NCBI GenBank assembly: GCA_004335835.1 | Contig: RWJK01001599.1 | Coordinates: 1 to 64,000, forward strand | Source of the DNA: Scenedesmus sp. ARA3 | Lineage: Eukaryota > Chlorophyta > Chlorophyceae > Sphaeropleales > Scenedesmaceae | Direction of reading: 5' to 3' | DNA: 64,000 nt | Notes under the pieces: generated by a model | Told to the model about the DNA's origin: nothing | The model's input: only the letters and a program-made list of their open reading frames with translations | The model's database searches: none | Part shown: one piece after another, positions 189 through 47,600 of the stretch | Layout: the number at the start of each line of letters is the position of its first letter | Numbering within the stretch: position 1 is the stretch's first letter | Program-made: the position numbers and the translations under genes

Positions 189-2078
189 CTGAATTGGAAC
201 AGCGCCCAGTCCTTGCCGCCGGCGCTGCACACCATGCTGTCGTCTGCGTTGAAGCGCACGCACATTACGTGGCTGCTGTGGCCCCTGTAGGCGCGGTGTG
301 GCGCCTCCTCAACAACCACGGGGTAGTTGAACAGCTTCACCAGGCCGTAATCGTCACAAGTGACCAGGTACTTGCTGGACTTTGACCTGGGGATTCAGCA
401 CACAGGGAGGCGGCACAAACAGGGTCAGCACACAAGAGCCAGCATACATACAGTCAGCACACATGGAGGTTCACCAGGCCGTAGTCGTCACAGGTGACCA
501 GGTACTTGCTGGACTTTGACCTGGGGGCGCAGCACACCAGGAGCAGAGGGGCTCAGCATACAGGGAGCGAGCATACATAGGCAGCATGTACAGCTGATGC
601 TGCTGCTGCTGCATGTCTAGCAATTGTGTGCTGCTGCACCCACCTGTCGCATGCGTTGATGTCGCTGCCGTCTGCTGTGTCAGGCCAGATGCCCATCACT
701 GGGAAGCCGTACAGGCAGGTCCATCCACTCCACTCAGTGTCACGGCAGCTGCCGGGCACCTGCTTGCCTGCAGCCAGCACAAGCAGCACCATGCCGTGCG
801 CCTCAACCCACAAGAGTGCACTAAACAGGAAGTAGCTGAGGGCCAAGCTGCTTGCACTGGGCGGCAGCTGCCTGGCACCTGCTTGCCTGCAGCCAGCACA
901 GCCACCAGCATGCCATGTGCCTCAACCAACAAGCCTGTACAACAGCAGCAAGCTGCTGACACAGAAGTGGCTTGCACACAGTATTCTGCCGCCTACCATG
1001 GAAGGCCAGACAGTTGCAACAAAGGAAAGCCTCCAACACGGTCCACCAGCTCCCTTTGGGGCCAGCGCCCGCCCATCATGCTGTGCACAAGTTGTGAGGC
1101 AGCATGTTCATTGCTCAGGAGAGCGCACCTGTGCGTGGGTTCCAGTAGAGGATCTCCTGTGCCGCGCAGTTGCTCTGCAGCACCGAGCTGTCCACGCTCC
1201 AGTCGATGGTGCGCACAGTTGCCGAGTGGCCACTGCAGCGGGCTGCAGACATGAGACACAGCAACGAGCAAGCAAACAAGCGCAGGTGCAAGTCGGCCTG
1301 GTTGTAGCACCCAGCCCAGCACTGCAAGATGACCTAGGCAGGCTGTATTTGCAGCATGTAGCAGCTTCAAGCATTCATGTATTGGCTGTGCCACTGTGAC
1401 CAATGCAGCGAAACAAACCTACTCCATGTATGCCGTGGCTCTCACCTATGCGCTGGTATCCCTTCTCCACGTTGTACACGTCCACCCATGCATCAAAGGT
1501 GGCTGCTGCCAGCAGCTTGCCGTCAGGGCTGTAGTCCAGCTCTGAGATGCCCTGCGTGCTGTCACGGCCCTCCCACACAGGGCGCAGCTCAGTCTCTGTC
1601 ACAACCTGTACACGCACACATAGTGTAAGGATCAGTAGCAGCAGCAGCAGCAGGGCTGAGTTTGTCTGGCGCTCACAAAGCGCCAGTGGAGAGTGTATCT
1701 GTGCATGGCAACTGAGCTCTTTCCACCCAGCTGTTTTGGCTGCCAACCCATTTTGCAATCAAGCATTGTAGCCACAGCCTAGCCTACGGCACTACAGCAT
1801 CTAGCCACCTCAGTTCATGCCTCACCCTGATGTGGCCCTGCGCGCCTCCCACAGCGATGTGGTGGCCAGCAGCCGCTGCCCCTGGCGCCCCATACGCCAC
1901 TGCACTGAAGGTCACCGCCCTGCACACAAACCCAACTGACGCCGCCCGCAGCAGCTGCCTGGCCTTGAGGTCCCACACATACACCTTGTTGCCGTCACAT
2001 ACACTGGAGATGATGTGTGGCTGCTCTGAGTGGCACGCCACAGCCCACACATCGTGGGAGTGGCCAGGCACAAGGATG

Positions 2079-2117
<39 letters not shown>

Positions 2118-16000: not shown

Positions 16001-19000
16001 TTGACTTCACAGCATGAAGTGTTGACTTCATGCTGTGATCACCGCATGACGCTAAGCTGTGCTGGCTTCTGCCCCTCTGCTGCCCCAGGTGCTGTGGTGT
16101 GAGCCATCCTCAGCCAGCGCCTCAGCCACACTCACATGCTTCATCCTGCTCGCTGCCGTGCATTGTTGCGTCATGCTGCTGCCCCAGGTGCTATGGTGTG
16201 AGCCGTCCTCAGCCAGCAACTCAGCCAGCCATACTGGATATGTCAATTTCACGCTCCAATGCCCCATGTTCTGCTCGCTGCTGTGCATTGTGTCTTGCTG
16301 CTGCCCCAGGTGCTGTGGTGTGAGCCCTCCTCAGCCAGCAACTCAGCCAGCCATACTGTATATGTCGATTTCACGCTACAATGTCCCATGCTCTGCTCGC
16401 TGCTGTGCATTGTGTTATGCTGCTCTCCCAGGTGCTGTGGTGTGAGCCCTCCTCAGCCAGCAGCGCCTCAGCCAGCCCCCAGCAGCGCCAGCAGCAGCTG
16501 CTGCGCCGCTCCCTGGGAGAGCTCGGCGGCCTGCTGCTGTGCCAGCTGCACGACCGCAACTGCGTACGTGAGTTCTGCCCGCCAGCCGCATTCTTAGCGG
16601 AGGCGCTGCCGCCTGGCCGGCTCTTGCAGGAAGTTGCGGCGCGCGGCGGGATCGAGGCGCTTGCAGGAAATGCAGGAAATGACAGCAGCGATGACGACGC
16701 GGAGCATGCGACGCCGCTGGAGCAGCAGCAGCAATGGCAGCGGCAGCGGCAGCGGGCGTTTGCGGGAGCAGGCGAGGCAGCTGGTATGGAGACTGAGGAG
16801 CAGCAGCAGCAGCAGCAGCGGCATGCGCAGCCGGGGACTGGTGCTGCTGCAGCTGGCACAAGTAGTGCGGCTGCAGGCGCCGGCCGGCAACCTGGCAGGG
16901 GCGGTGGTGGCAGCGAATCTGAGGAGAGTGATGACGATGTGGGCATGCTGCCAGCAGCAGGTGCTGCAGGTGCTGCAGGAGATCCAGTGGCTGTCGGCGG
17001 CTTTGGATTTGGCACAGGCACAACAGCGCAGCAGCAGCGGCGACAAGGCACCTTAGGCGCAGCGGCAGCGGCAGCATTCGGCGCTGGGGGTGGGGGTGGG
17101 GGTAGCACGTCTGCTGCTGGCAGCAGGGTGTGGCTGGTGCTGCAGCATGCGCCGTGCTTGATTCCTTTCCAAGATAGGGTGCAGCTCTTCCAGGCAGTGG
17201 TATCCGAGGAGAAGGAGGTTGCTGCTGCTGCAGCTGCGTCTGCTGCTGGAGCCGGCGGCATGTTCACCTTTGATGACCCCATGAGCATGTTCATGGGCGG
17301 TGCTGCAGAGAACCGCTTCGTGACCATCAGGTGCGTTGTTGCGTTGGTTGCGTGTGTGTATGCGCGCTTTAGAAGCCGTGTTCAGCCGTGCAATGGGGCG
17401 GCTCAAAGGCCGGCTGTGCATCACGCTTTGTGCAGCTACCACATCTGTGCCTGGCTCTCCTGCGCAACCTCGACACATGTTGCTGCCGCGCGCACCTTGC
17501 CGCTTGCTGCCGACGCCTGCACGTATCACCTGGCTTTTGCTTCTGCTGCTGCTGCTGTGGCTGCGTGCCCACCTGCAGGCGCGACCAGCTGTTGGAGGAC
17601 AGTTTTGCGCAGCTCAACAGCATGGGCGCTGACCGGCTGAAGGGCCGGCTGCGCATTGCGTACGTGAACGAGGCGGGCCTGGCTGAGGCGGGCATTGATG
17701 GAGGCGGGCTGTTCAAAGATTTCATGGAAGAGCTGCTGCGCCAGGGCTTCAGCCCGCAGGTGGGTCCCAGTGTGCTGTTGCTGCTGCTGCTAGTGTGCCG
17801 CAGGTTTTCAACTGCATGTAAAGTGGCATGTTCAATGACTTTATGGAGGAGCTGCTGCGCCAGGGCTTCAGCCCGCAGGTGTGCTGCCTTGCGTTGTTGT
17901 ACAGGCTGTTGGTGCACTGCCTGGCTGTTTGCTCATGTATTGGTTCAGGATGGTTGGAACATAGTGTGGTGCTGCTGCAGTGGGTTTCGTGTGTATGGAT
18001 TTGGCATTCGTATTGTTTTGGCAAGCAACGAGGCGGGGCTGGCTGAGGCGGGCATTGATGGCGGCGGGCTGTTCAAGGACTTGATGGAGGAGCCCACAGG
18101 TATATAGACGTTGAGCTGCGTTGGTATCAAAAATCTTGTATCTGGATGTACATTCATTGCATTCCTACGGACTGTTTGTGGTTGTGTGGTGCTGTTTGTT
18201 GATGCAATGATTTTGAATGCTTTGTTTTTTTCATTGTCATGGGTGGAGTCTGTGCAAGTATATCATTAGAGAGCTGCTGCGCCAGGGCTTCAGCCCTCAA
18301 ATAGTTATCATTGTGCTGTTGCAGTTCCTACTATTGTCAGGGGCATGTCTGCCTCATTGAGCTTTTTTTTTCTGCCTGTTACCAAAGTGCTGTGTCTACA
18401 GTGGGTTGTGGGGGCTGGTCAAACTTTGTGAAAGAGTTGCTGTGGCAGGGCTTCAGCCTGCAGGTAGGGTTTGGTGCTGGGCACCATCTTGCTGTCTCAC
18501 CTGCTGTTTGGTCAGCGTCATGTCGTAATGATGCTGCAGTGGGGATGATGTGCAGATGCCAACAGGTATGATGCGTCAAGGGGTATTGAGGCAGACATGC
18601 AGCAGAAAGCAGCTGCTGCTACCTGGCTTCGAGCATTCTGCTGGTGGCTGTGCTTATGTACTTGACCCTCGCGCCTCCTGTTTTCATGTCAGGCCTTCGT
18701 TCTCTGTGCTCTCAACTCCCTCCCGCGGTCGCACCTGTCTTGCGAGAGCCCCCAGCGCTAGCTCTACCCCAACCCTGCAGCGCATCAACTCATTTTGAAT
18801 GCGGAGGGCCAGCTGCGCCTCCTGGGGCGCATGCTGGGGCAAAGTGTATCACGTGAAGCTGCCGAATCAGGCCGTCTTTGTGCGGCTGCGTGCTGCTGGC
18901 ACTGCCGCAGGCCACCAACCAACCACTTACACCACGAGCTACCAGTTCTCAGTTGCCATGCACTGCTGCCTGCTTTTCTCCTGCAGTCGCACCTGTTCTG

Positions 19001-20590
19001 CAAGAACCCGCAGCGCCAGCTGTACCCCAACCCCGCAGCCCACCAGCTGCTGCCAGATGCTGGGGGCCAGCTGCGCTTCCTGGGCCGCATGCTGGGCAAA
19101 AGTGAAACTGCTGACACCCGGCACTCATTGTGCTGCTGTGAGCTGCTAGAGCTGCGGCAGGCCACCTCATCAGCTGCTTTATGTTGCCATCTGCCCTCTT
19201 CCAATCGCCATGTCACGCCCTGCTGCCTCTTAACTCTTTCCCTCCTGCAGTCGCACCTGTTCTGCGAGAACCTGCAGCGCCAGCTCTACCCCAACCCCGC
19301 AGCTCATCAACTCATATCAGATGCTGAGGGCCGGCTGCGCTTCCTGGGCCGCATGCTGGGCAAGGATCCGGCTGCTGCCACCCAGCACTCACTGTGCTGC
19401 TGTGTGCTGCTGGAGCTGCCGCAGGCCACCAACCTAGCAACTCACATTGCCAGCTGCCCTCTCTCAGCTGCCCTGCCCTGCTGCCTCTTGCTCTCAACTC
19501 CCTCCGCAGTCACACCTGTTCTGTGAGAACCCCCAGCGCCAGCTGTACCCCAACCCCGCAGCACACCAACTCATATCAGATGCTGAGGGCCAGCTGCGCT
19601 TCCTGGGCCGCATGCTGGGCAAGGATCCGGCTGCTGCCACCCAGCACTCACTGTGCTGCTGCGTGCTGCTGGAGCTGCTGCAGGCCGCCAAACTAGCAAC
19701 TCATATTGCCAACTGTCCTCTCTCAGCTGCCCTGCCCTGCTGCGTCTTGCTCTCAACTCCCTCCTGCAGTCACACCTGTTCTGCGAGAACCCGCAGCGCC
19801 AGCTGTACCCCAACCCTGCAGCACACCAGCTGCTGCCAGATGCGGAGGGCCAGCTGCGCTTCCTGGGCCGCATGCTGGGCAAGAGTTTGTATGAGGGCGT
19901 GCTGCTGGAGCTGCCGCTGGCTGCGTTCTTTCTGAAGAAGATGCGCGGCGGCGTGTGTGACATCAACGACCTGCCCAGCTTGGATCCTGAGGTGTATAAG
20001 CACCTGGCGCAGCTCAAGCACTACAGCGGTAGGTGGAGGTCGTTGGGCTACAGCATGTACCACTGCCAGCAGTGCAACATATCTAGCAAGCACCTGCCTA
20101 GCCTGGACCCGGAGGCGTACAAGCACCTGGCGCAGCTCAAGCACTATGCCGGTGAGGGGAGTCAGTGAGGGTGAGGGTATATATACTGTTATCATTAGCA
20201 TCAACAGCATGACCATCGAGCTGACCGTTGTCCCAATTGGCAGCAGCGACACCATCGTGCTGTCATGCAGTAGCCAACTGACGGTGCACAGGACAGGTTG
20301 ATGAGTAGATGAAGAACATCAGAGCTACAGCACACCACTGGATGGATGTTCAAGGTAATGCACTGCTGGTTCAGACAGTGTTGTGTGCTACAGATGTCTT
20401 TTCGAAGCCTTTTTGCTGTCTCTTCGGCGTGGCACCAACCAGCTGCTGACGGGGCCTATGACGGCGCTACATGCATGTTGCCGCCCAGGAGCTTTGACCA
20501 CGCATGCATTGCGCGCTGCGCTGCTGCCGCCGCAGGTGACTTTGCGGACCTCTCTCTGACCTTCACAGCCACTGTGGTGGACGCCACCCC

Positions 20591-20621
<31 letters not shown>

Positions 20622-22626
20622 GCATCCACATCCGCTGCTCCCCGCACTCGCGAAGTGGACCTCAAGCCTGGAGGCCGCGACATTCCAGTGCGAGCAGACA
20701 ATGTGGTTGAATACATCCATCGGCTCGCCGACTTCCGGCTGAACCGGCAGATGGATCGAGCTGCGAACGCCTTTTTGGGCGGGTTTTTCGAGCTGATTCG
20801 GCCTCGCTGGGTGCGCATGTTCAATGAGGCGGAGCTGCAGATGCTCATCAGCGGCAGCGAGGAGGGCATCGACGTGGACGACCTGGTGGCACACGTGAAC
20901 TACGCAGGTGGGTCGGTGGGCGTGAATGTTGATGTCGGTGGTGTGACCAGGGGAAGGGGTGGTGGGTGACGTGGCAATGTTAGTAGCGCATGTGAACCAT
21001 CATGCAGCTGCCGGCGGCTCAAGTTGCTGGTGAGGCGAGGGGAGGGAGGCCAAGGATGGCAGGGGCGGATCGGGTTGTTGAGGTAGGTAAGGCATCGACG
21101 TGTACGACCTGGCGGCACACGTTAACTACGCAGGTGGGCTGCAGTCTCATTGCCGTTCACAGCACAGCACGCAGGTTGTGTCGCATATTGGTGTCACGGT
21201 TGCGGTGTGACGGCTTTGTGGTGTGACGGCTTAGTGGCGCTCGTGAACTACGCAGGTGGGGCTGGATCACACGGCTGGACAGTCTGTCGTGTATGTGCGT
21301 GAAGGTATGGTGGTGCTGATTTGCTTGTTGGGTAGGGCGTCAAAGGGGACGACCTGGTGGCGCACATGAACTATGCAGGTGGGGTGGCAGGGTGCCGTGT
21401 ATGCGTGCGTGCGGGCGCGCACGTGTGTGTATGTCTGCGGTCAGGCAGGGTTGTCAGCTGAATGGGGTGGTGGTGGTGACTGTGCGACGGCTTAGTGACG
21501 CAGTAAACTTTGCAGGTGGGGATCAAATTGCTGTCCAGGCTGTCGTGTGGCTAGCGCATCAGCTGGTGAATCCTGGCTGTGGCGATTTTACACGCAGCAA
21601 TAACCTGCCGTACAGTGATGCTTTTGACAAGTTCAGCTGTTGCTAGGCAAAGCTTCCTCTGGCCATATGCTTGCGTGCCGTGCACGTGGCTACCATGCGG
21701 AGCACCCCGTCATGCTCACGCTGTGGCATGCATACATGCCAAATACGTGTTTGTCGTACCAGCGTCACAGCATTGTAATGCTACAAATCATCGCCAGCTG
21801 TTGTGCTGCCGGTACACTGCCCTGCCGTGCAGGCGGCTACCACGCGGAGCACCTGGTCATGCTCACGCTGTGGCATGTATTTGTCGCACCAGCGTCACAG
21901 CATTGTAATCCTACAAATCATCACCAGCTGTTGTTCTGCCGCGCACTGCGCTGCCGTGCAGGCGGCTACCATGCGCAGCACCTGGTCATGCTCACCCTGT
22001 GGCATTCATCTGCTGAACCAGCCAGCGCTGCTTGCTTAGTGTTTTACAACCCATTACAATCTACTGCCGCACACTGCCCTGCCGTGCAGGCGGCTACCAT
22101 GCGGAGCACCCTGTCATGCTCACGCTGTGGGACGCGCTGCGCACCTTCTCCCCGCAGCAGCAGCGCCTCTTCCTCAAGTTTGTGACCTCATGCAGCCGCG
22201 CACCCCTGCTGGGCTTTAGGTGACCATGAAGCTTTATCAAGTTTGTTGGTTGTAAGCAGCGTCATGCTTTGCGTGCAGACGGGCGTCTTCAAAGTATAAC
22301 CTTGAATTTTTAGTGACAGCCTGCACCAACTTGCTTGCAGCCGCCTGTTCACCACTGCGTGTCCGTTGCGTCGAACCCGCTTCATAACACCAACATAACG
22401 CCTTGTTGCATTTTTTCTGCTGTGCATTCCCGGCCGCAGGTACCTGGAGCCGCAGCTGTGCATCCAGATGAGCGGCAGCGTGCTGGCGGCCGGCTCGCGC
22501 GAGCGGCTGCCCACGGCCGCCACGTGCATGAACCTGCTCAAGCTGCCGCCCTACCAGGACTTTGACGAGATGCGCAGCAAGCTGCTGTACGCGATCACAG
22601 CTGGTGCCGGCTTCGAGCTCAGCTGA
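13060..22626 (+). CDS. HECT E3 ubiquitin ligase with N-terminal IQ motif (UBE3B/UBE3C, UPL6/7 type)
   Basis: Nine exons: 13060-13313, 13460-13599, 13874-15819, 16432-17330, 17579-17759, 19770-20028, 20536-20907, 22090-22219, 22440-22626; 4368 bp, 1455 residues. HECT ligases take ubiquitin from an E2 onto a catalytic cysteine, then pass it to substrate. The N-terminus ([18 protein letters not shown], then an IQ motif with [12 protein letters not shown]) is the UBE3B/C-UPL6/7 signature. Residues about 130-1080 are an armadillo-like region swollen by poly-Q/poly-A. The HECT domain follows: [49 protein letters not shown]. The catalytic Cys is about residue 1423 in [12 protein letters not shown], and the protein ends AGFELS as usual. 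Three introns carry arrays of partial exon copies with splice sites, so minor isoforms are possible; exons were chosen as the only set preserving the complete domain and frame. Confidence 0.96.
16007..16038. repeat. inverted repeat in HECT intron 3
   Basis: Perfect 14-base arms (tcacagcatgaagt and acttcatgctgtga) around a gttg loop, just upstream of the exon-4 copy array. It could fold as a stem in the pre-mRNA. Confidence 0.8.
16073..16431 (+). repeat. tandem copies of HECT exon 4 acceptor and 5' end (3 extra copies)
   Basis: Three partial copies with acceptor-exon junctions near 16089, 16188 and 16310 precede the real exon at 16432. Each repeats the intron end (tgctcgctgctgtgcattg...ccag) and the exon start encoding [10 protein letters not shown] or close variants. 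The last spacing is about 121 bp. Every copy keeps an AG acceptor. Confidence 0.9.
17826..18466 (+). repeat. copies of HECT exon 5 3' end and donor (4 copies)
   Basis: After the real exon (17579-17759) come partial copies at about 17826-17880, 18026-18098, 18266-18301 and 18420-18465. The nearest keeps [16 protein letters not shown] and a GT donor. The 18026 copy covers the [18 protein letters not shown] part. The farthest is worn to [16 protein letters not shown]. They occupy the 5' part of the intron. Confidence 0.9.
18706..19769 (+). repeat. ~260-bp tandem array of HECT exon 6 acceptor and 5' end (4 extra copies)
   Basis: The exon start encoding [16 protein letters not shown] recurs at about 18728, 18987, 19250 and 19510 before the real exon at 19770, spaced 258-264 bp. 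Each unit is roughly 140 bp of intron end plus about 117 bp of exon through GRMLGK. The first, most distant copy has an in-frame TAG; the others stay open and nearly identical to the exon. Confidence 0.95.
21088..21520 (+). repeat. copies of HECT exon 7 3' end and donor (4 copies)
   Basis: The end of exon 20536-20907 ([12 protein letters not shown]) recurs at about 21088-21137, 21229-21259, 21330-21381 and 21480-21520, each followed by gtggg as at the real donor. The farthest copy is the most altered ([10 protein letters not shown]). Confidence 0.9.
21675..22007 (+). repeat. copies of HECT exon 8 acceptor and 5' end (3 copies)
   Basis: The start of exon 22090-22219 ([14 protein letters not shown]) recurs at about 21675-21730, 21820-21878 and 21945-22006, spaced about 130 bp. 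In the most distant copy the acceptor AG has become AC (gtgcacgtggctac), while its exon portion stays readable. Confidence 0.92.
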
Positions 22627-23508: not shown

Positions 23509-26384
23509 CTACTCTGCTTGCTGCTGCTGTTGCTGCTCTGCCAGCGGTGTGCGGTCCTCTCCCGCCGCTGCTGCTGCTGCTCCCCACAGCTGCTGTATGG
23601 GCTGCCCCTCCTTGCAGCGCCTGACCACTTGCAGCGCTTCCGCCAAGATCTGCAGCAGCAGCAGTGTAAGCAGCAGCAGCAGCAGCAAAATAAGCAGCGC
23701 AGATGGCAGGCGCGTAGATGCATGTCCAGCGCGAATGTAACCGGGCAGCTTGACGAGTGAAATGCAACACATGTGAACCACCTTTAGCCACAAATTTGAG
23801 CAGAGACAACACCGTCTATGAAGAGGTACAGGATGCGGCTGCTACATCACAAAGGGAAAGCTGGAGCTGCTGCTAGGCAGCCCTGGGTTTGTTGCATTGC
23901 CTTTCAGCGCAACACGCAAGGCTTCGAGTAAACAATGCTGCTGACGAACAGGGCTTGCATCCGCCCCAGCATCAGTCGCTGCATTGCGCAGCGCATCATA
24001 TCATTGTAGTTCTGCTGCAGATTCATAGTGACTGCCGCCGCTGCTGCTGCCAAGAGAGCGTTGCATCCGGCAGCAGCACTGCAGCACTGCAGGGCCACCC
24101 ACCTGCTCATGTATCTGCTCCACCGACTGTGACGCATCCACCACCAGCCAGCTAGGCTCCTTCAGCTGCTGGAACGCCGCACGCACCTGCAGAGCGTGAG
24201 CACAAGAGTGCAGGTAACATAAGTAACACACGTAACAGCATGGTTGACCTGAACTTGATCAGGCAGCAAGCGCGCAGCAGCACTTGGTGTGCCGCCTAAC
24301 ATGACACTGCCTGGCACAGCATCACTCCCCATTTCTGTGGTGCTGCAGACCTCTGCAGCTTGTGCAGCAACACAACTGCATTCAGCAAAGACTATCCCCA
24401 TGCCAGCGGTCCTGTACGCCCTGCCACTCAGTCTACACACACACGCAACTGCAGATACAAACAACACTGTGCTGCTGGTCCCCGTCCCTTGTCTTACGGT
24501 CTGCTCTACCTCTCCGCCGCCCACCCTGTCTTGCAACTCCGCATTCTCATAGCGCTTCTGTTCAAGACGTTGTTCAAAGCGCTCCTCAGACACTAGATAA
24601 TTGCATGACAAGCAGCTTGAAGGTTTTGAACAAGCAGTGCTTTCAAGACGTTATTCAAAGCGCTCTTAAGACACTAGGTATATGCATGACAAGCCGCTTG
24701 AAGGTTTTGAACAAGCACGGCCTGTACAAAACCTTTAAGCTGCTTGTCATGCAAATACCTAGCGTCTGAGGAGCGCTTTGAAAAAACGTTTTGAAAAGAA
24801 GCGCTATGTGGCACAAACAACCCACTTTGGCTTGGAATTCCGCCTTCTCATAGCGCTGCCCGCCAAAGCCCGCCCGCGCAGCCGCTGCTGCATTGTCCAG
24901 CTCCAAGTACACCACCGAGCACCAACCCCACAAAACCTGCCACCCACCCCGTCCTGAAACGCCGCCTCGCTCCTGTCCCCACATTGTGTTTGAAAGCCCT
25001 CCTGACACAGTAACCTGCCTAAGGAGATACCTACAACAAGCAGCGTGAAGATTTTCAAAAGCACAAACCACCCACCCTGTCCTGAAACTCCGCCTTCTCA
25101 TAGCGCTCGCCTCCAAAGCCCGCCCTGGCAGCTGCTGCTGCATTGTCCAGCTCCAGGTACACAACCAGGTCAGGAGCAGGCAGGCCCGCATCAGGCGCCT
25201 TGCACCAGAATGCATCCATGCCTGGCAAGGCCTTGGCTGCTGAGTAGGCCACGCCAGAGTAGGCGTAGCGATCTACAACGAGGCTGGTGCCAGAGTGCAG
25301 TGCGCGTAGTAATGCATCACTGCAGGGGAGAGGGCCAATGGTTTTGCAGGAACAGCAGTTAGTGAGCAGCAGGTGATGGAGGCGTAGCGGTCTACTACCA
25401 GGCTGGTGCCGGAGTGCAGTGCGCGCAGCAGCGCATCACTGCAGGGGAGAAACACAGCAGTTTTGCGGAAACAGCAGTTGATGAGCGGCAGGTGATGGAG
25501 CAAGCGTAGCGGTCTACTACCAGGCTGGTGCCGGAGTGCAGCGCACGCAGCAGGGCATCACTGCAGGGGAGAAAAAAACGCAACGGGTTTGCAGGAGCAG
25601 CAGTTAATGAGCAGCAGGTGATGGAGCAAGCGTAGCGGATTACAACGAGGCTGGTGCCGCAGTGCAGTGCGCGCAGCAGGGCATCACCGCAGGGGAGTGA
25701 AGCAGCAACAGCAACTGCAGGGGGTCGTGTGCAGAAGATTGTGCACAACGCACACCTTTCATTCCATACACAGCAAGGCCAGCCAGCATCCTGCTTACAC
25801 ATGCTGCTAGCTGCCAAGCAGCAAGTAGAGGGTAGGGCTAACACTAGTATCAACAGCAGCAGCAGCAATGTGTTGCATAGCAGCAGCTGCTTGCCTCTTC
25901 TCCCAGCGGTTAGCGCTAAACAGCAGGTGGATCGCCCTGTCATTGTGATCCTGCTTTCCAGCCAGGTACTCGTTGATGGCGTGGCCTGTGACTGTGTTCT
26001 TCCTGTCTGGAAAGTTCCAGGACTCCACTGCTACCTGCAAGCATGTGTGTGGTTTGAACAGCTTCGTCAGCAGCACACAGCAGTGAGGAGAGGCAGCAGC
26101 TGCTGTTGTGCACTGCATGCTGACCTGTTGCTGCAGGATCAAGCAACCGACTAGTGCTAAATCCTCACCCCTTTGCTCTGGAGTGCTTTCGCCAGCAAGC
26201 TCGTTTGCGTAGACTTCCCGCACCGGTCTACACCTTCAAACAGTATGAAGGCTCCTCTGGGGCCTTGCTGCTGTTGCATCGTGCTACTGCAAGCTGCCGA
26301 CCGCCTCGACGTGAAAACACAAGTACTGACCAAACGGTTTGCAGCACTACCCCAGCGCAAATGGCGTGGTGAGGTGCTGAGCAT
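23509..26384 (-). CDS. thymidylate kinase (dTMP kinase)
   Basis: Five exons: 26169-26384, 25895-26034, 25076-25319, 24103-24186, 23509-23649; 825 bp, 274 residues. The enzyme phosphorylates dTMP to dTDP, needed for dTTP supply. The P-loop is [11 protein letters not shown] (about residues 49-59). Then come [12 protein letters not shown], the DRY-type motif [14 protein letters not shown], the lid/helix region [27 protein letters not shown] and a terminal QPIQQLW motif. Starting at 26384 gives a 35-residue Arg/Ser-rich presequence before [11 protein letters not shown]; an internal ATG at 26279 would give the cytosolic-length form, so dual targeting is possible. The exon 2 donor must be GC (AG|GCAAGC) to keep the [12 protein letters not shown] frame. 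Exon 3 is flanked on both sides by partial copies of its own edges. Confidence 0.93.
24517..24965 (-). repeat. copies of TMPK exon 3 3' end plus intron, with an inverted unit
   Basis: Partial copies of the exon end ([11 protein letters not shown]) lie near 24520-24560, 24826-24916 and 24945-24965, after the real exon in transcript order. The middle copy also repeats [17 protein letters not shown]. Between the first two lies a large inverted repeat (24548-24808) built from the same unit. Confidence 0.88.
24548..24808. repeat. long inverted repeat (hairpin) in TMPK intron 3
   Basis: The left arm at 24548-24636 is repeated in tandem at 24640-24719 and inverted at 24724-24808, with a few mismatches. 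Arms of about 85 bp could form a strong stem in DNA or pre-mRNA. The arm resembles the intron just after the real exon 3, so this is probably an inverted copy of the tandem unit rather than a MITE. Confidence 0.85.
25381..25692 (-). repeat. copies of TMPK exon 3 acceptor and 5' end (3 copies)
   Basis: The exon start ([19 protein letters not shown], with ctcccctgcag acceptor) at 25262-25330 recurs at about 25381-25450, 25502-25570 and 25627-25695, spaced about 122 bp. All keep the acceptor and an open frame, so the intron offers four similar 3' splice sites. Confidence 0.93.
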
Positions 26385-29083: not shown

Positions 29084-31235
29084 AGTAGCTGCCGCATCCA
29101 ACCAGCCGCCCAGGGATGCCACCACCACCTGGCTGGGTTGCGACTGCGTGCCTAGCTGCTGCTGTGTGCTGCCGCCTGTTGTAGCGAGTTGTGCCACCAC
29201 TGATTGCAACACTCCAGTCCCAGGCGCAGCATCTTCAATGTCAGCACAGCCATCAGCAATCTGGAGGCTGTCAGACACAACGCCTGACAAACCGCCATCC
29301 TGCCGCTGCTGCTGCTGTTCTGACAGTGCCACAGCTGCTGCCAGCTCACCGCCAGCTTCCACTGCCTGCTCACTGGCCACCAAATCATCAGCTGCATGTG
29401 CACTGGCAGTGCAGCCATCTGGCTCAGCTGCTGCTTGCCGTGCTGCAGGAGTCGCTGCAAAGAAGGCATGCAGCCCACCTCCCTGAGCAGCCTTGGCCCT
29501 GCTGCGGCTGCCGCCCATATCAGCAGCAGCTGGACGCTTCTTGCTTGCTGTGCTGCCACTGCTGCCTTTGGTTGTGAGGCCTCCTGGGCTACCATCCACC
29601 TCATGCTGCTGCNNNNNNNNNNNNNNNNNNNNNNNNNNNNNNNNNNNNNNNNNNNNNNNNNNTGCTGCTGCACCAGTGCCTGTTGAGTCAGCCGGTGCTT
29701 GCTGTTGCTGCTGCTGCTGCTGCCGGCCAGCAGCCATGAACCTGTCCAGCGTTGATGCACCTGTGGGTGCCGCCACAAAGTTGGATGCTGAGATGAACAT
29801 GCCAATGATCTTCCAGCCCTGGCCCCTGCAGGCAGACACAATGCAACATGTTACGACAGCCAGAACAGGTCCTTTCACATGCACACAATCCTGTTTACTT
29901 CACAAGACTAAGTTATGCTTGACCACACATCACACACACACACTTGCTGCCAAGGACCGCTGCAGGATCCCTGCTGCTCACCATCTTCTCAAGCAAACTA
30001 AACACAACGACACCGACAAATCTGTCAATGACAAACCGCGCACCTGTCGCGTGCCCACTTCTTGACCAGCTTCAGCGCATCAGCAGCCATCACCTCGGCC
30101 ACAGGCCGCCGCAGCGGCGTGGAGCGGCTCACAGCAGCAACGCCAGCACGCCAGTTCTGCGGCGTGGCGCGCCCAGCAGCAGCAGCAGCAGCAGGGCCGG
30201 CTGCAGCAGCCTGGACGATTGCAGCGCTGGCGCCTGGAACAGCAGCGCTGTCGGGACCTGTGGGTGAATACAGCACACACAGCAGCAGGTCAGCACGTGT
30301 ACGCACTTGACTCCAAACAGCATGCACCTACACGGTGCATGGTCCTAGGAGCAGGCCTGCTGTTGCTGGGCCATGGCTTAGAGAGCACCAAATGACTGCA
30401 TGATACGGCTAGACCCACCTGCGTCAGCAGCAGCCAGTGTGTTGATCGACACCGTGAGCTGGCTGGGCATGCGCTGGTGCTGCCGCCTGTCTGCATCCAG
30501 CTGCTCCTGCAGCTCAGAAGCCAGCTGGCTCAGCCAGCCATGCACCGCAGAACACAATGTACACTCTCGCACGCGAGATCACCGCCATAGCGCTACACGC
30601 CAGTGCATTCTCCAGCACCCACCAAGCGCCAGCCAGCCACCCATCTACCCACCTGCCGCAGCGGCTGCTAGTGTGTCAATTGACACCGTGAGCTGGCTAG
30701 GCGTGCGCTGGTGCTGCCGCCTGTCGTTGTCTAGCCGCTCTTGCAGCTCAGTAGCGAGTTGGCTCAGCCAGCCATGCACCGCAGTGAGGCCTGTCAGTGC
30801 GGAGGCACCGCGGAAGGTCTTGCCGCAGCTGATGGACTTGGGCAGGGTGCGGGGCTTGACCTCTTCATCGTCCTTGCCCTGCAACACTCATGGAGCGCAG
30901 GCAAGACTGGCTGTCAGCAGTAGGGTGTTGGCTGTGTGATTATCGCTGGCAGCAGTGCATGTAGGTGTGCACGGCTTGATGTTCTGGTGCCTGCTGCAAG
31001 TGCAGCATGAAGCCAGGCAAAATCTGGCAGCTTGAGGTGCGTGCAGCTGACATAACACTGCGTCAACTTGGCATGTCATCAAATTGTTTTATCAAATGCA
31101 GTTGCGCCGCACCTGTGCCAGGCGCTGCAGCCAGGCAGCGTTCTCCAGGCCAACGAGCGCCTCAAGCCGCGGCAGCGGCACCGCAGCCAGCTCACCCACT
31201 GTGGACACGCCCAGGCCCTGCAGGAGGAGGTTCAA

Positions 31236-31281
<46 letters not shown>

Positions 31282-33275
31282 CAGGCGTCCACGAGTGGGC
31301 TATGTTCCTGTGTTTGCAACACCCGTGTGTATTGCAGCGTTGACAAAGGCAAGCCACTCGCCCAAGGACAACGATGAGCAGCAGGTTGATGCTTGAGTGT
31401 GCTGTGCAAACATAGGTTTAGTTGCTGTGGACGTGCATGGCCAGCTGCAATGCTTGCCGCTCACAGCATGTGGCGCGCCAAGCTGAAACCACACATGGCC
31501 CCCATTTTGGCAGATGCTGGTTTTGCCCAGTAGTGGGATTTTTAACTACATAGCGAACCAAGCTGTGCAATTTGGCCCGCACCGTCATGAGCTCCTCCCC
31601 AAACTTGCCGCCCAGCTGGCATGCCAAGCTGAAACCGCACATGGCCCCACTCTGAGCAGATGCTAGTATAAAGTCATTTATTTCCAAAACGTTCAACAAA
31701 CCAAGCGCTGCAGCCCTCGCACCATCATGAGCTCCTCCCCAAACTTGCCGCCCAGCTGGCATGCCAAGCTGAAAGTGCACATGGCCCCAATCTGAGCAGA
31801 TGCTAGTATAAAGTCATTCATTTCCAAAACGTTCAACAAACCAAGCGCTGCTGCCCTCGCACCGTCATGAGCTCCTCCCCAAACTTGCCGCCCAGCTGGC
31901 GCAGCTTGGGCAGTGGCAGCGGGCCCAGCAGCCCAGGCACGGCTGCAGCAGGCACCAGCGTCTGCTGCGCAGGCTTGTTCAGGCCTGCAATATGTCACCA
32001 CATTGACAAAACGCCATTGAGCGCACAGAGTGCAAGCTGTGGAGGAGCGACGCACTTGGAAGCGGGCTGGTCTGAGAACAACTCAGCATGAGGGTATGCA
32101 GCACACAGCAACGCCTGCAACGCCCCTTCCAAACATGTAAGCGTCTTGGCGCTCCGCAATGGATTGCCCAGTGCTTGACAGCATCGCAGCATCCCTCACC
32201 TGACCCCAGCTTTGCCAGGATCTTGGAGTGTGCAATGCCAGCAGAGCAGCTGTAGCCAAGCTGCTGGGCCACTGCTGCACGCAGCCGCGCCACCACCACA
32301 GCACCAGCAGCAAGCAGCAGCTCGTCATTGTTCCAGCAGGCGGCCGGGCGGGCCCACCATGCGGCCACGCCAGCTGCACCAGGCTCCTGCAGCAACATAC
32401 ATAAAACACAGTTTGTAAAAAAGCAGTTAGGAGACAGCAGCAACTCATCATTGCTCCAGCAGGCGGCCGGGCGGGCCCACCATGCGGCTACACCTGCTGC
32501 ACCCGGCTCCTGCAGCAGCATGCGCGATCCCAGGTTATAAGAGAGAGGATAGTCACATGTAGGTCCTGGCGCCATCTTGGATGGCATGAGCCACAACAGA
32601 TTGACGCAGCCGCCAGCAGCAGCTCAGGCCCCAGGCTCCTGCAGCAGCAGCATGTATGATCAAAGGTTGTGAGGCAGCAGCAGCAGCAGCAAGCAGCAGC
32701 TCATCGTTGCTCCAGCAGGCGGGGCGCCGCGCCCACCATGCGGGCACGCCAGCTGCACCAGGCTCCTGCAGCAGCATGTATGAATCGCAGATTATGAGAC
32801 AGCAGCAGCCAGCAGCAGCTTGTCATGGCTCCAGCAGGCAGCAAGGCGAGTCCACCAGGCGGCCACACATGTCTGTTGGCTGATAATCACAGCCTCTTCT
32901 TAGGGTGCGATGCATCACACAGAGCCACCCACCGCAGCATCAGCGACGTGCCACCCCTCAATCGACTCCGGCAGGGGCAGCAGCGGCCCAACCGCAGCCG
33001 GCTGCGCACCAGCATCATCAACTGCCTGCTGCTGCTGCTGGCCGCCACCAGCACCCAACTGTGCCTGCAATGCATCACCTGCAGCATCCCCACCACCTGC
33101 TGCTGCTGCTGCTGCTGCCAGCAGCTGCTGTGCGCCTGCTGTCACATCTAGGTACGCCTCATCCACTGAGGCGCGCTCACAGATCGCCCCGTCAGATGAC
33201 AGCACACTGATGACTGCAGCGCCAGCATCACGGTAGATCTGAATGTCTGCCTTGCCGTGCGCAACAGGCACCTGC

Positions 33276-33315
<40 letters not shown>

Positions 33316-34725
33316 GCGATCAGCATGGTAGATCTGAGTGTCTACCTTGCCGTGCGAAACAGGTACCTGCACAGGTCAGCAGCAGCCGCAGCAGCCGCAG
33401 CAGAAAGTGGGCAAGAGCCAGGCCGCAGAAACAATGCCTGCAGTGCGGCTGCAGCCTGGTCAACAATCTGTTCTGCTTATAATGCAGCGCAGCATGGCAG
33501 GCAGCTGCTCAGCTCAAACAGCAGCAGACTTCAACAACACTTCTTGATGATGAGGCACTGCCTCACTGGCTGGTGTGTCAGGCAAATGCATGACAGGCAG
33601 TGAGACTCGCAGCAGGCACAGGTAGAGGCGTCACAAACATGCCATGCTCGCGCCACACCTGCACAATGTTGAGCTCAGGGCACAGCTTCTTGGCTGCCTG
33701 CGCCATCATGTTTCTGCAGGCACAAGCAGCACAAGATATGTGTCGTCAGACAAAAAGCTCTGCTTACTGCCAGTTTGCTGGACCTGAGCTGTGCAGCAAG
33801 CTGCTGTGTTGTTGCAGCACCAGTTGAACCGGCTGCGCTGCCCTCACACACATGCCATGCTGTTGCCGCTGCTGCTGCTGCTGCTGCTGCTGCCGCCGCC
33901 AGTGCCGCAGCTGTGCCTGCTGCTCACCGCTTGACGCCATGCTTGCGTGCCTCATATGATACAGCGATGATGCTGCCGTTGCTGTCAGGGAACAGCCTGT
34001 TGTCTGAGGGCTTGACTGTGCGCAGGTCGCCATACTGCACCAGCATGCATGTTGCACATACAATCAGTTGCACATTCCACACTACAATGAGTAATGAGCA
34101 GCAGGCTCTGGAAGTGTACACACAGGAGATTATGTTGGGTTGAAGAATGCATTGAAACTGCACCACCTTGCTGTGTCACTGGCAGCTGCTGCTCGCTCGC
34201 CTGCTGCAACACTGCTCCGGCTGCAACAGCTGCCGCAGCATCAAGCACCATGTTTGATGCGCTGCTGCAACGACAGTTGGGCTTGCAGCAGGCAAAGCAT
34301 GCAAGAGCAAGGCTGCATGCCGTCATGACTCGAGGCTGAAGAGAGAGTGCAGCCTAACATGCCTGCAGGACAGCTGCTTTGCTACTGTACACTTGCACAA
34401 ATGTGCAGCAGCGCCACATGCGTGCTTACCGGGTTGTACTGCACCACCACTACAGGTGTACCCTTCAGGCTGGGGTTACGCTGCACCTCTACTTGAGTGT
34501 AGAACTGCATGTTGAGAGCGCAGCAGCAGCAGCAGCAGCAGCAGCACACTGTCACGCTGTGCTGAAACGTTGGATGCTGTGCATGCTGAGCTGCTGCGCT
34601 GCCTGTTGCAGGCTGGTATGAAATCTTAGCTGCTTCATTTGTAGAATGTATGTGCGGAGTTGCTGTACAGGGATAAAGATATGTATACTCACAGCATCCA
34701 GGTCCACATGAGCCAGCACACGCAT
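28538..34725 (-). CDS. POLH: translesion DNA polymerase eta (Y family)
   Basis: Eleven exons: 34693-34725, 34430-34504, 33928-34034, 33659-33713, 32933-33271, 32200-32386, 31863-31984, 31113-31217, 30653-30878, 30044-30257, 28538-29825; about 916 residues if the 50-N gap size is right. Pol eta copies past UV photoproducts. Y-family motifs appear in order: HVDLDAFY (catalytic Asp about 8), VSYEARKHGVKR, SVDEAYLD (Asp127, Glu128), SAGIAHSKILAKL, LNKPAQQTLV, LRQLGGKFGEEL, LPKSISCGKTFRG and the little-finger segment SQLTVSI. The C-terminus is Gln/Ala-rich and carries a ubiquitin-binding motif (DIDPAVLSELPLEIQLEV) and a final PCNA-interacting-like sequence (SISKYFKK). No UBZ zinc finger was seen, which fits plant Pol eta. 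Several introns hold partial exon copies. Confidence 0.94.
29047..29083. repeat. CTG/CAG-rich run encoding poly-Q in POLH
   Basis: A near-perfect run of CTG triplets on the plus strand, interrupted by one TTG, encodes a Gln run in the disordered C-terminal region of polymerase eta. Confidence 0.9.
29613..29662. other. assembly gap (50 N)
   Basis: Fifty N bases inside the last POLH exon, flanked on both sides by CTG/CAG repeats, so probably a collapsed repeat. The flanking halves are in one frame if the gap is a multiple of three away from 50; its true length is unknown. Confidence 0.99.
30417..30550 (-). repeat. copy of POLH exon 9 3' end and donor
   Basis: About 134 bp closely matching 30651-30784. 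It repeats the exon end encoding LSQLATELQERLDNDRR through SIDTLAAA with a few substitutions (LSQLASELQEQLDADRR, SINTLAAADAG) and the donor. It lies in the following intron and is open throughout. Confidence 0.93.
31580..31760 (-). repeat. copies of POLH exon 7 3' end and donor (2 copies)
   Basis: The exon end QLGGKFGEELMT at about 31855-31905 recurs at about 31715-31762 and 31580-31625 with adjoining intron, spaced about 130 bp. Each copy keeps its GT donor (gtgcgggcc or gatggtgcgagg context). Confidence 0.92.
32439..32870 (-). repeat. copies of POLH exon 6 acceptor and 5' end (3-4 copies)
   Basis: The exon start EPGAAGVAAWWARPAACW (real copy about 32305-32390) recurs at about 32439-32523 and 32695-32778, with worn pieces near 32620-32655 and 32810-32870. 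The first two keep a cag acceptor and an open frame. Confidence 0.9.
33315..33371 (-). repeat. copy of POLH exon 5 acceptor and 5' end
   Basis: About 55 bp matching 33228-33280, repeating the acceptor and the exon start encoding VPVAHGKADIQIY as VPVSHGKVDTQIYH. It lies in the upstream intron, separated from the real site by a CAG run. Confidence 0.85.
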
Positions 34726-36519: not shown

Positions 36520-36536
36520 GTGACTTACAGCAGCGG

Positions 36537-36556: not shown

Positions 36557-36595
36557 CGAGTGACAACAGCTAGTGCTGGGGGCTGGGGGCTGAGC

Positions 36596-36650: not shown

Positions 36651-37192
36651 CAGCAGCAGCAGCGGGGGGTCAGTTCTGGCGCTGTAGTGCTACAGCATGA
36701 GCAGTTGCATGCTGTGGCTGAGTCAGCAACAGCGTGTCACTCGGGTGCCAACCACTAGTTACGTACATAGTGGCTGGAGGTGCGGTGGTTGTCTCTTTGA
36801 GTCTCCACTTGTGTTGCAATGTGGATCAGTTGTGCGGAACGTTATGGTTACCTTGATGATGACGCCGTTGGCAAGCGGATCGGTGTGTGTGGCGGCTGGA
36901 CGGGTTGCCGGGGCTTCACCGCTCATTGGCCTGATCCTGGCTTAGTGTCTGTGATCTCTCTTTTCAGCAGGCAAGGACTGTGGCCCACAGACCGGGGCTG
37001 TGTAGGCTGTGATCTTGTAATGGCCCTTCATTGTAATGGCCATTCCATGGATGAAGCGGTCAGGGGTTGAGAAAAGGGGCGACTTGAAAAATCAAATAGG
37101 TTGAGACGTAGGCCAACGAAGTGGGAGTTGCGTTGGAAAGAAAGAAACAAATAGGTACATGAGTACCAAGTAACAGCATGGACTGCAGGCTA

Positions 37193-37212
37193 TAGCTAGC
37201 TAGCTAGCTAGC
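37193..37212. repeat. (TAGC)5 microsatellite
   Basis: Five perfect TAGC units in the spacer between the derlin and MARVEL-like genes. Confidence 0.95.
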
Positions 37213-37738
37213 TTGGCAAGCTGAAACACAGTAGTAGTAGTAGTGTGCCTCCTGCAGCTCCTTACAAATGTGGTACTCGTTACCATATGTCATGACCTTC
37301 AGGTCAGTGGGCAGCTGACTCGCGCTATTGTGTTGTCCTATCACTGCAGCAATCTTGTCAAGGCACTGCACTGCAGCAGCATACTCACTTCACTGAATGA
37401 ATGAATGAGCTACGCGTGGTGTGTTAAAACTCGCCACCCGCGTAAGTTAAGGGAGGGGGTGTGTGTGACGATGAGGATACCCCATGCGCCTTCACACCTC
37501 CTACCATTCACTTCACTCAAGAACTTCTTGCCCGGACCCCAACAAACGTCTGCACTTGACCATCCACCCAACCATGCAGGGTCAACAACGGAACCAACAC
37601 CCCAACCATGCTTCGCTGCGTATCTGTTCTGCTCAGTATGGTTTGCCTGCCAACAAAGTCAACGCGTTCATGCATTCACACACCCCAAAACCACGCCGAA
37701 GTCTGCATCACTCCACTGCACCTCGTGCAAGGGTCTGA

Positions 37739-40985: not shown

Positions 40986-41256
40986 GCACTTGCTGGCCCC
41001 AGCAGCAGACGCCAAACACGCAGCTGGCGCAGAGCAGAAGCCTTCCACCTCACTTGCTGACCCCAGCAGCAGACACCAGATACGCAGCCGCAGAGCAGAA
41101 GCGTTCCACCTCACTTGCTGGCACCAGCAGCAGACAGCAGCAGCTCCCGCAGGAACTCCTTGAGCCGCAGGTTACACTGCTGCTGGCTAACCACAGCTGT
41201 CCAAAGTCACTTGCTGGCGCCAGCAGCAGACAGCAGCAGCTCTCGCAGGAACTCCT
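40986..41256 (-). repeat. tandem copies of the exportin-T 3' coding end (about 4)
   Basis: The end of the XPOT CDS (LLLSAAGASK-stop, about 41380-41430) recurs at about 41208-41256, 41109-41160, 41049-41077 and 40986-41010, becoming shorter and more altered with distance. They lie beyond the stop codon in the 3' UTR or flank. Confidence 0.9.
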
Positions 41257-41379
41257 AGAGCTGCTTCGCCTCGCTCTGCGGCAGCACCTGCCCACACAGC
41301 TACTGCTCTTTGAGCACAGTACGGCTTCCTGCAGTCCTGCTGGACCCACGCTGCTGCTGCAGAACCACAGCTGCCCACG

Positions 41380-44300: not shown

Positions 44301-44585
44301 CTGCTGCGAGCACTGCCTGCAGCTTCCCCGCAACAAAGTTGAGAGATTCCGGAAACGCGAGCTTTGCTGCGTTTTTAAGCAGCACGAGCAGCTCCCGCCG
44401 CCGCTCTTCTACCTCCCATTGCTCTTCCCGCGCTGCAAGCATCTCTGCATCGCTGAGCCGCGCACGGCTGCCTGCTGCTGCTGCTGCTGCTGCTCCTAAG
44501 CCTGGCCCGCCGCTGCCGTCGTCTGCTTCGTTGGCGCCGTCTGCGGGGTAGCGTGCTGCTGCTGCAACACCCTCCAGCACAGCCT

Positions 44586-44639
<54 letters not shown>

Positions 44640-47600
44640 TGCACAGCAGTGAGATTGCAGTAGGGGCAGCTGCAGCTGCATCAGGCGCGTATATATCATG
44701 CCAGCTGGCAGTGCCCACGCAGCTGTACCAACAGCACAAAGGGACCGCACGACGTTTTGCACCTGGATTGCACATGCTTACTACAGCCTGTACGCTGCCA
44801 TGCAAGCCCCAGGTCGCTTGCTGCCCAGCAGCAGCTGCTGCGCCTGCTGAACTGCTCGTTTGCCACAGCAAACTTTGCACCGACGGCACTGCACTCCATC
44901 TCATAACCATCACCGTTGACACCCCAAAAAGCACATCCAAGCACGCGATTGTCACTGCTGCTGCCGCACCTGTATATGCATCTGCGCGCCTGCAGGCAGG
45001 GCCTGCCCCCGCTTAGTCAGCGCCCTCAGCCGCGCCACATAAGCAGACATAAAGGGTACCAGCGGCATGCTGATGGTGTCCAGGCCGCTGCAGAAAGCTG
45101 TGAGTGCTGCACGTGTGAGGGCTTCCAGCAGGCGGTTGGCTGCCTGTGCAGCCAGGGTGGCATCGCGTGCTGCGTCATCATCCACTCCTAGGCCAGTGAC
45201 GTTGAAGCTGATGACGACTGCAGCAGCAGTGAGAAAGACAGAGTAGCCACTGTTAGTGTCAGCATGCTTGTGCAAGGGTGGCGTCACGTGCTGCGTCATC
45301 ATCCACTCCTAGGCCGGTGACGTTGAAGCTGATGACGACTGCGGTAGCAGTGAGAAAGACAGAGTAGCCACTGTTAGTGTCAGCATGATTGTGCAAGGGT
45401 GGCGTCACGTGCTGCGTCATCATCCACTCCTAGGCCTGTGACGCTGAAGCTGATGACGGCTGCGGCGGCAGTGAGAGAGAGCCAGGGTAGCACTTATCAG
45501 GCAGAAATGTTGAATTACGACGTGCAAGATCAAGTCCGGGATGCACATGAGATGGCGGCAGTGTGGGACGGCATACAGCGGTGTGAGTGTTGCAATGGCC
45601 TCACTGTTGCAATCAGCGCACTCGCAGCACCAGCAGCCGCCCTGCTGCGGCAAGCTTTGACACCATCATGCAGCTGCACACTGCGTGCACAGCACCCCAA
45701 CACCCCAGCAGCGCCAGCCTCTTCTACCCTCACCGTTCTCCACGCGCTTGAGTGCATCCATGACCTCACTCGCCAGCGTTGCCAGCAGCTTCGCATACTT
45801 CCCCAGCAGCTCATCATCCTGGTCAAGCGCAGCAGCAGACACACCAGCACCACCACCCCCAGCTGCACCACCGCCCTGCTTAGCCTTCTCGCCACATCCT
45901 CCCACTGCCAGTGCTGCTGCAGCCGCCGCCTTATTCGCGCCGGCTGCCGCAATCAGGTTGCTGCTGAGGCGCTCGCAGGCGTCCACTACCTTCAGCTGCT
46001 GCACCAGGGCGATCTTGGCGGTGGGCTCCATGCGCTTTGAAACAACCTCGGCAAGCAAGTCGGTGGCGGCGCCGCGCAGCGCGGGGTTGGCGTGGTCCAT
46101 GAGCTCGCCCAGCAGCGGAATGAACCTGCGGCAGCAGCAATTTGTGACACAAAGAAGACATGCGTGTTCAAAATTATGTAGCGCGATAAGTCCAGCGGTG
46201 CATGGGGTGGGCAATGCTGCAGCAGTGTAGCCAATGACTAGCCGCCGGCCGCACCTATCATTTTTTGCCACCAGCCCGCTGTCCATCCAGTGCACATACA
46301 CACAGCAAACACATCAGCCACAGCCACACTGCTTTAGCAGTGCACATGTTTTTTCACCAGCTGCCGCACCTGTCATTCGCCACCAGCCCGATGTCCATCC
46401 AGTGCACGCACATGCATGTACAAAAGGCAGATGCCACAGCACACTGCTGTAGCAGTACAGCAAGCAAACCTCCCGCCCCCTTACCTGTCATTTGCCACCA
46501 GCCCGATGTCCATCCAGTGCACGTAGCGCGCCGCGCTGGCCAGCACAAACGCTGCCAGCTCTGGCCTGCTGGCCTTGTAGAGCTGCGTGAGGTTGAACCA
46601 GGCCGCTGCCACCTCAGCGATGCACTGCTCGCGCATGCTGTCCTTGAGGTGCATGCTGAGCTTGGTCTCCTCGGCAGACCTGCGGTGCAGTACGCGGTAC
46701 AGCCCGGCAGTGCACGATACACTTAGGTCAGGCGATGCAGCCGGGGCGCGCAAGATTCACCAGAGGTAAAAAGATGCAGTACAACCAACTGGAGGGACAA
46801 ATGCATGATTTTAAACAGCCAACTGGAGAAACAAAGAAAAGTGACGGTGGCAAAAGATAGTTTCACTCACCTGGGGATGTCCAGGCTGATGACGTCCTCG
46901 TCCACCGCCACCATGATGCGCCCAAACATGTCCGCCAGGCCCGGCCCGCTGCCCGCAGCCGCCACAAGCTCCCGGAAGAAGCTCGGCCACAACGCAGGGT
47001 ACTCGCGCTTGACCACAGCCACGATAGCCTGCGCCAGCTTGTTGCGCAGGAAAGGGGGCAGTGCTGGGGACTCTGAGGTGCAGTCGCGCTGCAGCCAGGT
47101 CAGCAGCGCGCCCTTGATCTGTTTGGGGGAGCAGCGAAACACAGCAGAAAACAAGAAGTTTTTTGTAGGTGAGCAGCGGCAGGTGAGAAGGGGAGGGGGT
47201 TGGTAGCAGCCAGGTCAGCAGCGCGCCCTTGATCTGTTTGAGGGAGAGGCGCAAGCAGACAGCAGGGGAAAAGACAGCAGCAGGTGAGCAGGGGAAGGCG
47301 TTGTCAGCAGCGCGCCCGTGATCTGGTATTGGCAAGCGACGGACAGGCAGCAGTAGTGGGGAAGGAAGGAAAGAGAAGAAGACAGCAGGTGAGCAGGCAG
47401 GCAGGCAGGCAGGCAAGTGGGTAGCTGGTGGAGAGGGTGGCTGGAGTGATGGGGAGGCAGTAGTGCAGAGGATAGATGCAGGGGTGGCTGCGCACTGCGG
47501 GTGGCTGTGGGGTTGGTTGCGGCTGGGGATGCAGCACGCTGTTGCTGCTGTGAAGTTGCACCTGCTGGCTGCTGCTCCTGCAGCTGCTGGTGCTGCATCC

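Follow-up and report, generated by a model that had tools for sequence, protein, structure and literature searches.

Analysis of a 64,000-nucleotide stretch of the Scenedesmus sp. ARA3 genome (contig RWJK01001599.1, positions 1 to 64,000, hereafter the window) and of further sampled contigs showed that the introns of this green alga often carry tandem copies of the edge of the adjoining exon, each with its splice signal. About 10% of the sampled splice junctions were affected. The arrays are real and amount to a frequent lengthening of introns by tandem duplication across the splice junction, with two features unexplained: a unit of 120 or 245 bp, and a low rate of change at codon positions 1 and 2. 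The account we favour, and hold to be probable though by no means certain, is that junction-crossing tandem duplications survive since the extra copy is spliced out, and that introns lengthen in this way.

Frequency and location of the exon-edge copies

The window is contig C1208 of a genome of 87.3 Mb in 1567 contigs. The 284-kb sample comprised the window plus 22 tiles, each of 10 kb; tile L002 repeated the window, L017 was all N, L001 was short, and several tiles held N runs. N letters, from assembly gaps or withheld stretches, were many (the whole of L017 and parts of L013, L015, L018 and L020). The sample is not random, because the tiles mostly represent the opening 10 kb of contigs picked by number. 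Gene models are sequence-only predictions from a hidden Markov gene finder that was self-trained on the sampled sequence. It labelled 364 introns (median 270 bp), with donors close to CAG/GTGAG and acceptors close to TGCAG/ (the stroke marks the junction), and several copies were miscalled as exons.

By self-BLAST, local direct repeats formed 79 clusters over the 284 kb, 18 within the window, and by eye the larger part involved an exon edge and its intron. For an edge to count as real, the match had to cover 20 or more exonic bases and the exon had to extend at least 10 bases past it. Whole-exon duplicates are outside the set by construction, as admitted copies stop at least 10 bases before the other end of the exon, and coding-repeat junctions in L014 were removed. 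A total of 56 real junctions were kept, 55 of them with copies, and 99 copies were counted; the window contributed 14 junctions and 28 copies.

A control search was run on junctions of predicted exons of at least 60 bp, after exclusion of those predicted exons that had been counted as copies. A copy of the exon edge was found in the own-side (adjoining) intron at 53/521 junctions and in the opposite intron at 6/509, while exon interiors gave 1/202 and the inverted and shuffled controls each gave 0/521. Beyond chance, donor-side copies thus lie after the exon and acceptor-side copies before it, as the first-pass annotation of the window had reported. Its proposal of a widespread, mutational habit of intron lengthening was also supported in the sample, where the stretches from a real junction to its last copy added up to 14.3 kb against 154.9 kb of labelled intron.

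Tandem repeats of similar period were also present away from junctions, in introns, exons and intergenic sequence. Among the 46 full-unit head-to-tail arrays of the sample, 27 were read as junction-crossing and 5 as purely intronic, the rest being exonic, intergenic or ambiguous. Long old arrays outside introns were seen in L010 (1135-3665 and 5225-6352), with periods near 105, 147 and 215 bp and one of 228 bp in predicted coding sequence, so the duplication habit is seen elsewhere too. An intronic minisatellite in 40-bp steps, up to 95% identical, was observed at L016 7493-7848.

The first-pass annotation had described such copies in at least a dozen introns of five genes of the window (EML, HECT, thymidylate kinase or TMPK, POLH and XPOT). 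This was borne out for the 14 junctions counted, save that the junction at 33313 is doubtful. The repeats in these genes are as follows.

333..579, minus strand, EML acceptor-side array: real exon start 379, copy at 513, 134 bp upstream
743..977, minus strand, EML acceptor-side array: real exon start 767, copy 119 bp upstream
16077..16477, plus strand, HECT acceptor-side array: real exon start 16432, copy steps of 122, 122 and 99 bp
17667..18468, plus strand, HECT donor-side copies: exon end 17759, copies at about 17829, 18027, 18250 and 18412; the 18027 copy stops short of the donor, and intron parts are barely alignable
18702..19886, plus strand, HECT acceptor-side array of units of about 259 bp: real exon start 19770, steps of 260, 259, 264 and 258 bp
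19969..20146, plus strand, HECT exon-end copy 123 bp downstream: in frame and with no stop, read through by the gene finder
20863..21383, plus strand, HECT donor-side copies: exon end 20907, copies at +226 and +471
21672..22130, plus strand, HECT acceptor-side array: real exon start 22090, steps of 128, 129 and 147 bp
24517..25166, minus strand, thymidylate-kinase gene donor-side copies: exon end 25076, copies 250 and 551 bp off; an intronic 81-bp tandem pair (24561-24717) lies between the two
25257..25697, minus strand, thymidylate-kinase gene acceptor-side array: real exon start 25319, steps of 119, 122 and 126 bp
30413..30784, minus strand, POLH donor-side copy: exon end 30653, copy 234 bp downstream
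31453..31900, minus strand, POLH donor-side array: real exon end 31863, steps of 140 and 140 bp; the far copy keeps 38/38 exonic bases, with its intron part near background
32299..32871, minus strand, POLH repeats of 123-127 bp: adjoining the IMS-domain exon, where the gene finder did not place the junction
33216..33403, minus strand, CAG-rich exon-edge match, 97 bp: weak and doubtful, its junction 33313 counted among the 14
45141..45491, minus strand, XPOT acceptor-side array: real exon start 45217, steps of 121 and 121 bp
46248..46525, minus strand, XPOT donor-side array: real exon end 46485, steps of 115 and 115 bp
47091..47325, minus strand, XPOT intronic tandem pair, 115 bp: no exon part

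The pairs at 47091-47325 and 24561-24717 lie wholly within predicted introns, and the claim that the units always cross a junction was not borne out. With the gene models skipping the copies, Pfam matches supported all five genes: HECT as one domain match covering 2-299 of 306, Xpo1 for XPOT (with Exportin-T in a separate search), the propellers and HELP of EML, thymidylate kinase, and HhH and IMS of POLH.

Other features of the window were noted. Repeats spaced 64-394 bp occur at the predicted end of XPOT (40940-41456), overlapping the last predicted coding exon and extending beyond it. At 52470-64000 (plus strand) one predicted protein consists of two near-identical transporter-like halves, with a Sugar_tr match in the open reading frame (ORF) 60290-61039; this is probably a tandem gene pair merged by the gene finder. 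At 8296-10707 (minus strand) a predicted protein with the motif GKGGVGKTT, split over two gene models, is presumably MinD-like. An Rfam search of the window returned nothing at gathering scores.

Spacing, junction position and decay of the copies

Of the 99 spacings, 59 fell in 110-139 bp, 18 in 210-309 bp and none in 170-209 bp. Within many arrays the spacing was near-constant (134, 124, 123, 124 and 124 bp in L015; 260, 259, 264 and 258 bp in HECT), and Tandem Repeats Finder gave periods of 115-140 and 259 for the window arrays, whose copies are adjacent and of near-constant period as in tandem repeats. Units of about 110-130 bp, and of about 260 bp in a single array, had been described for the window; the shorter class was recovered at 97-147 bp, and the longer class (226-301 bp) is not limited to one array.

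The place of the junction within the unit was non-uniform (P = 2e-8). It fitted random placement once 45 or 50 intron bases were required (P = 0.22 and 0.48), and limits of 30 and 40 bases did not fit (P = 0.001 and 0.02). The 45-base limit was set post hoc, with the data already in view, and is broken by 4/55 units. Such a requirement is plausibly understandable for an acceptor, which has a branch point and pyrimidine tract, and is less obvious for a donor.

Decay with distance was compared in arrays with at least two copies over the whole sample. The expectation that the nearest copies are best preserved was not upheld for the exonic part (identity 0.926 nearest vs 0.905 farthest, P = 0.12) and was upheld for the intronic part (alignment z 7.6 vs 2.3, P = 0.0008).

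Differences between real edge and copy numbered 100, 98 and 320 at codon positions 1, 2 and 3 over 5613 exonic sites (99 pairs). Codon changes comprised 154 nonsynonymous, 235 synonymous and 4 stops, against a random expectation of about 276, 106 and 11; the 14 copies with gaps, 6 of them not a multiple of 3, were outside the codon comparison. When short pairs were dropped and every array was weighted once (92 pairs, 51 arrays), divergence was 5.6% at positions 1 and 2, 17.6% at position 3 and 20% in alignable intron. Copies compared with each other gave ratios to positions 1 and 2 of 2.28 (1.71-3.06) for position 3 and 2.22 (1.40-3.28) for intron, which alone are not above 2, the most that a copy evolving neutrally beside a constrained exon should give. 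Changes confined to a single copy (45, 47 and 86 by codon position) were likewise inside the neutral bound.

Origin of the copies

The favoured account would begin with a frequent tendency to tandem duplication in units close to 120 or 245 bp. Within an exon, most such events would shift the frame and disappear. A duplication that crosses a single junction would double the splice signal together with the exon edge and mostly at least 45 intron bases, and would be near neutral and retained because the outer site is still usable and the rest leaves with the intron. Further duplication beside the exon, together with unequal exchange within the array, would make the intron longer. The intronic parts would then diverge fast while selection on the real edge would keep the exonic part alike, so that old arrays would come to resemble bare exon edges that stop at the splice signal. 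Many copies would shortly before have been real edges of other alleles, brought in by unequal exchange between alleles.

Several results weigh against this account. The unit length of about 120 bp is without explanation. Of the 92 real-copy pairs, 53 had no globally alignable intron part, although their exonic divergence was similar to that of the 39 with it. Junctions were crossed by 27/32 full-unit intron arrays, where random placement predicts 41-60% (P = 0.003 vs 0.60). Between real edge and copy, the ratio of position 3 to positions 1 and 2 was 3.14 (2.40-4.11) and that of intron to positions 1 and 2 was 3.57 (2.85-4.63), both above the neutral bound, and in L023 the differences of the nearest copy were 17/17 at position 3.

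The 53 pairs with no globally alignable intron part, with many copies matching 24-132 exonic and just 3-8 intronic bases, would suit a process linked to splicing or transcription that places a copy of the edge, ending at the splice signal, some 120 bases into the intron and requires no plain tandem duplication. The excess of crossing, and the recurrence of copies at or near the same eIF3I and RAD16 edges in other assemblies (below), speak for it as well. However, full-unit arrays share their spacing with exon-only ones and grade into them: for nearest copies at a single unit, the mean was 123 bp with alignable intron (n = 18) and 125 bp without (n = 23). By local alignment, 37% of 30 exon-only nearest pairs keep intron similarity (P < 0.05), and arrays of similar period exist in introns, exons and intergenic sequence. 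Matches ending at +3 to +8 would also be close to the chance level set by the splice consensus that all sites share. We consider such edge copying unlikely. A composite of it, in which a junction-anchored process of this group of green algae repeatedly recreates edges at a fixed distance of about 120 or 245 bp, at the same edges across species, with copies overwritten by the edges of other alleles and evolving as if coding, is judged fairly unlikely.

Exon-only copies were dropped as a separate class; in the alignment test the mean intron z was 0.58 over 38 pairs with a short intron match, beside the local similarity given above. Given the equal mean spacing and the residual intron similarity, the two types of pair were taken as one process, and exon-only pairs with no retained intron similarity remain unaccounted for by it. 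The 41-60% range was obtained from random 120-bp units in array-free introns and was set by the longest introns admitted; it became 32-50% when 46 intronic bases were required. The excess of crossing is partly a matter of detection, because exonic parts stay recognisable longer. The amplification of exon borders as such, an idea of the first-pass annotation, is weakly supported by the 27/32 crossing arrays, a count which exonic persistence inflates.

An introner-like insertion with the copies as its long target-site duplication would place two near-identical edges around a spacer, here of at least 34 bp, as is observed. Spacers of different introns (38 pairs, all against all) shared no similarity, matches occurring only inside the same array, and a mobile element was therefore rejected as the origin of the spacers within the sample. 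Multi-copy arrays repeat the spacer as well, and the duplicated stretches are 24-132 bp long against the 3-9 bp described for some introners (PMC9860276). This explanation is very improbable. A HECT stretch had one other match in the genome, of 41 bp.

Simple neutral decay was rejected as a full account of the codon positions, as the real-copy ratios exceed 2. Gene conversion from the real edge alone was set aside on reasoning, since it cannot lift the ratio of position 3 to positions 1 and 2 above 2 where allelic differences are lacking. The pattern also differed among genes (heterogeneity P = 0.0014 by locus); in L024, 3/12 differences of the nearest copy were at position 3. The shortage of change at positions 1 and 2 of the copies suggests exchange between diverged alleles, in which copies from a diverse population were, until recently, real edges belonging to a different allele. 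Other sources of it may be constraint acting on the copies, or a few chimeric genes.

Chimeric assembly, in which the edge of a second, diverged haplotype was joined behind the first, would fit genes of the L023 type, which differ nearly or wholly in synonymous sites and have unalignable introns, as two functional alleles would, and the assembly does contain N runs. Against it stand arrays of 3-5 copies with a near-constant, array-specific period, copies with amino-acid changes, stops or lost splice sites, and the presence of comparable copies, in part decayed, in proteins of other origin. Contigs of a second haplotype were rejected at the two loci tested, where matches elsewhere in the genome were just short or weak. 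As a general explanation, chimeras are quite unlikely.

Splice-site use, relatives and significance

The splice dinucleotide was kept in 86/99 copies, where neutral decay predicts 89% (P = 0.42), and the copy scored at least as high as the real site in 28/45 donors and 23/53 acceptors. Spacings had remainders of 0, 1 and 2 modulo 3 in 37, 28 and 34 cases, and the frame-keeping spacing of alternative or mutually exclusive exons was thus not found. Copies retained by selection as decoys or alternative splice sites, for splicing regulation or isoforms, would account for the good splice signals and for the slow change at positions 1 and 2. The neutral decay of the dinucleotides, the lack of bias to multiples of 3, the stops and gaps, and a real-copy substitution pattern that varies by locus all oppose this, and we give it an outside chance. 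As spacings are blind to frame and the dinucleotides decay neutrally, the regulated isoforms raised by the first-pass annotation are unsupported, and a general in-frame isoform function was rejected. Isoform use may occur in single cases such as HECT 19969-20146. There, use of the inner donor is predicted to add about 41 residues, which makes it a clear in-frame isoform candidate.

Protein homology points to use of the outer site. For eIF3I in L020, a Tetradesmus obliquus protein matched at 97.8-100% over six exon-length matches and joins the exons at three outer real edges, with no new intron between the copies. This match and the guanine-cytosine (GC) content suggest that the sampled genome is close to T. 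obliquus; window GC was 0.53-0.62 in 2-kb steps, fitting the 57% given for that species (PMC5966456). Among the five genomes tabulated in the same source, its mean intron of 462 bp is the longest.

Two read-through ORFs containing copies were used as queries against a protein collection. An internal-repeat scan covered 101 of the 197 returned proteins (up to 320 aa); four, all from other assemblies, were read as having exon-edge copies, located at or close to the eIF3I and RAD16 edges that carry them in the sample, and most other high scorers were WD40 repeats. An eIF3I piece, P0034 (lgn, taken as Logan), has the exon end GGGQDASQ/V and a decayed copy of it 204 nt later; L020 also has a donor-side copy at this exon end. 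In the RAD16 pieces P0181 (ena), P0183 (jgi) and P0179 (lgn), the stretch that in L013 begins the exon with an acceptor-side array is preceded by a copy, at a distance of 114, 111 and 153 nt respectively. The source sequences are probably algal, and these copies read as signs of the same kind of intron lengthening in other species. The protein search with the XPOT ORF returned relatives with no recognised copy.

At L013 6133-6783, three in-frame copies precede the RAD16-like exon start, and one ORF reads the edge four times. In the same genome as the window, neighbouring Pfam matches sharing a profile end were seen by eye, in match lists only, for PF00271 on C693, C719 and C910 and for PF00069 on C1086.

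Tandem genomic duplication of exon sequence with an AGGT is a known route of intron gain, reviewed in PMC3443670 with citation of Hellsten et al. 2011 and of Gao and Lynch 2009. The arrays resemble this process in being short tandem duplications with exon sequence and splice signals, the extra copy being removed by the spliceosome. They differ in that an existing intron is lengthened across one junction, with no new intron (as in eIF3I), and in that about a tenth of the sampled junctions is affected. Rogers is said to have made an older proposal of intron gain by tandem duplication.

Like intronic minisatellites, the arrays have head-to-tail units of near-constant, array-specific period; unlike them, the units mostly straddle a splice junction and each carries an exon edge and splice signal. 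Reed and Maniatis reportedly engineered duplicate splice sites in 1986 to study splice-site choice. There, as here, competition is between duplicated donors or acceptors set in the same exon context, but the present ones are natural and widespread. As with introners (PMC9860276), many introns of one algal genome are affected, whereas here the repeat is local and no element sequence is common to the sampled introns. A keyword search of open-licence PMC papers, covering the listed entries and the opening lines of their abstracts, found no report of exon-edge arrays under the words used.

The arrays offer a concrete and common route to longer introns without transposons, and a natural experiment in which the spliceosome chooses among two to six near-identical splice sites. 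They are also a hazard for annotation, since copies can be called as exons, and their spacing, close to 120 and 245 bp, hints at a duplication mechanism as yet unknown.

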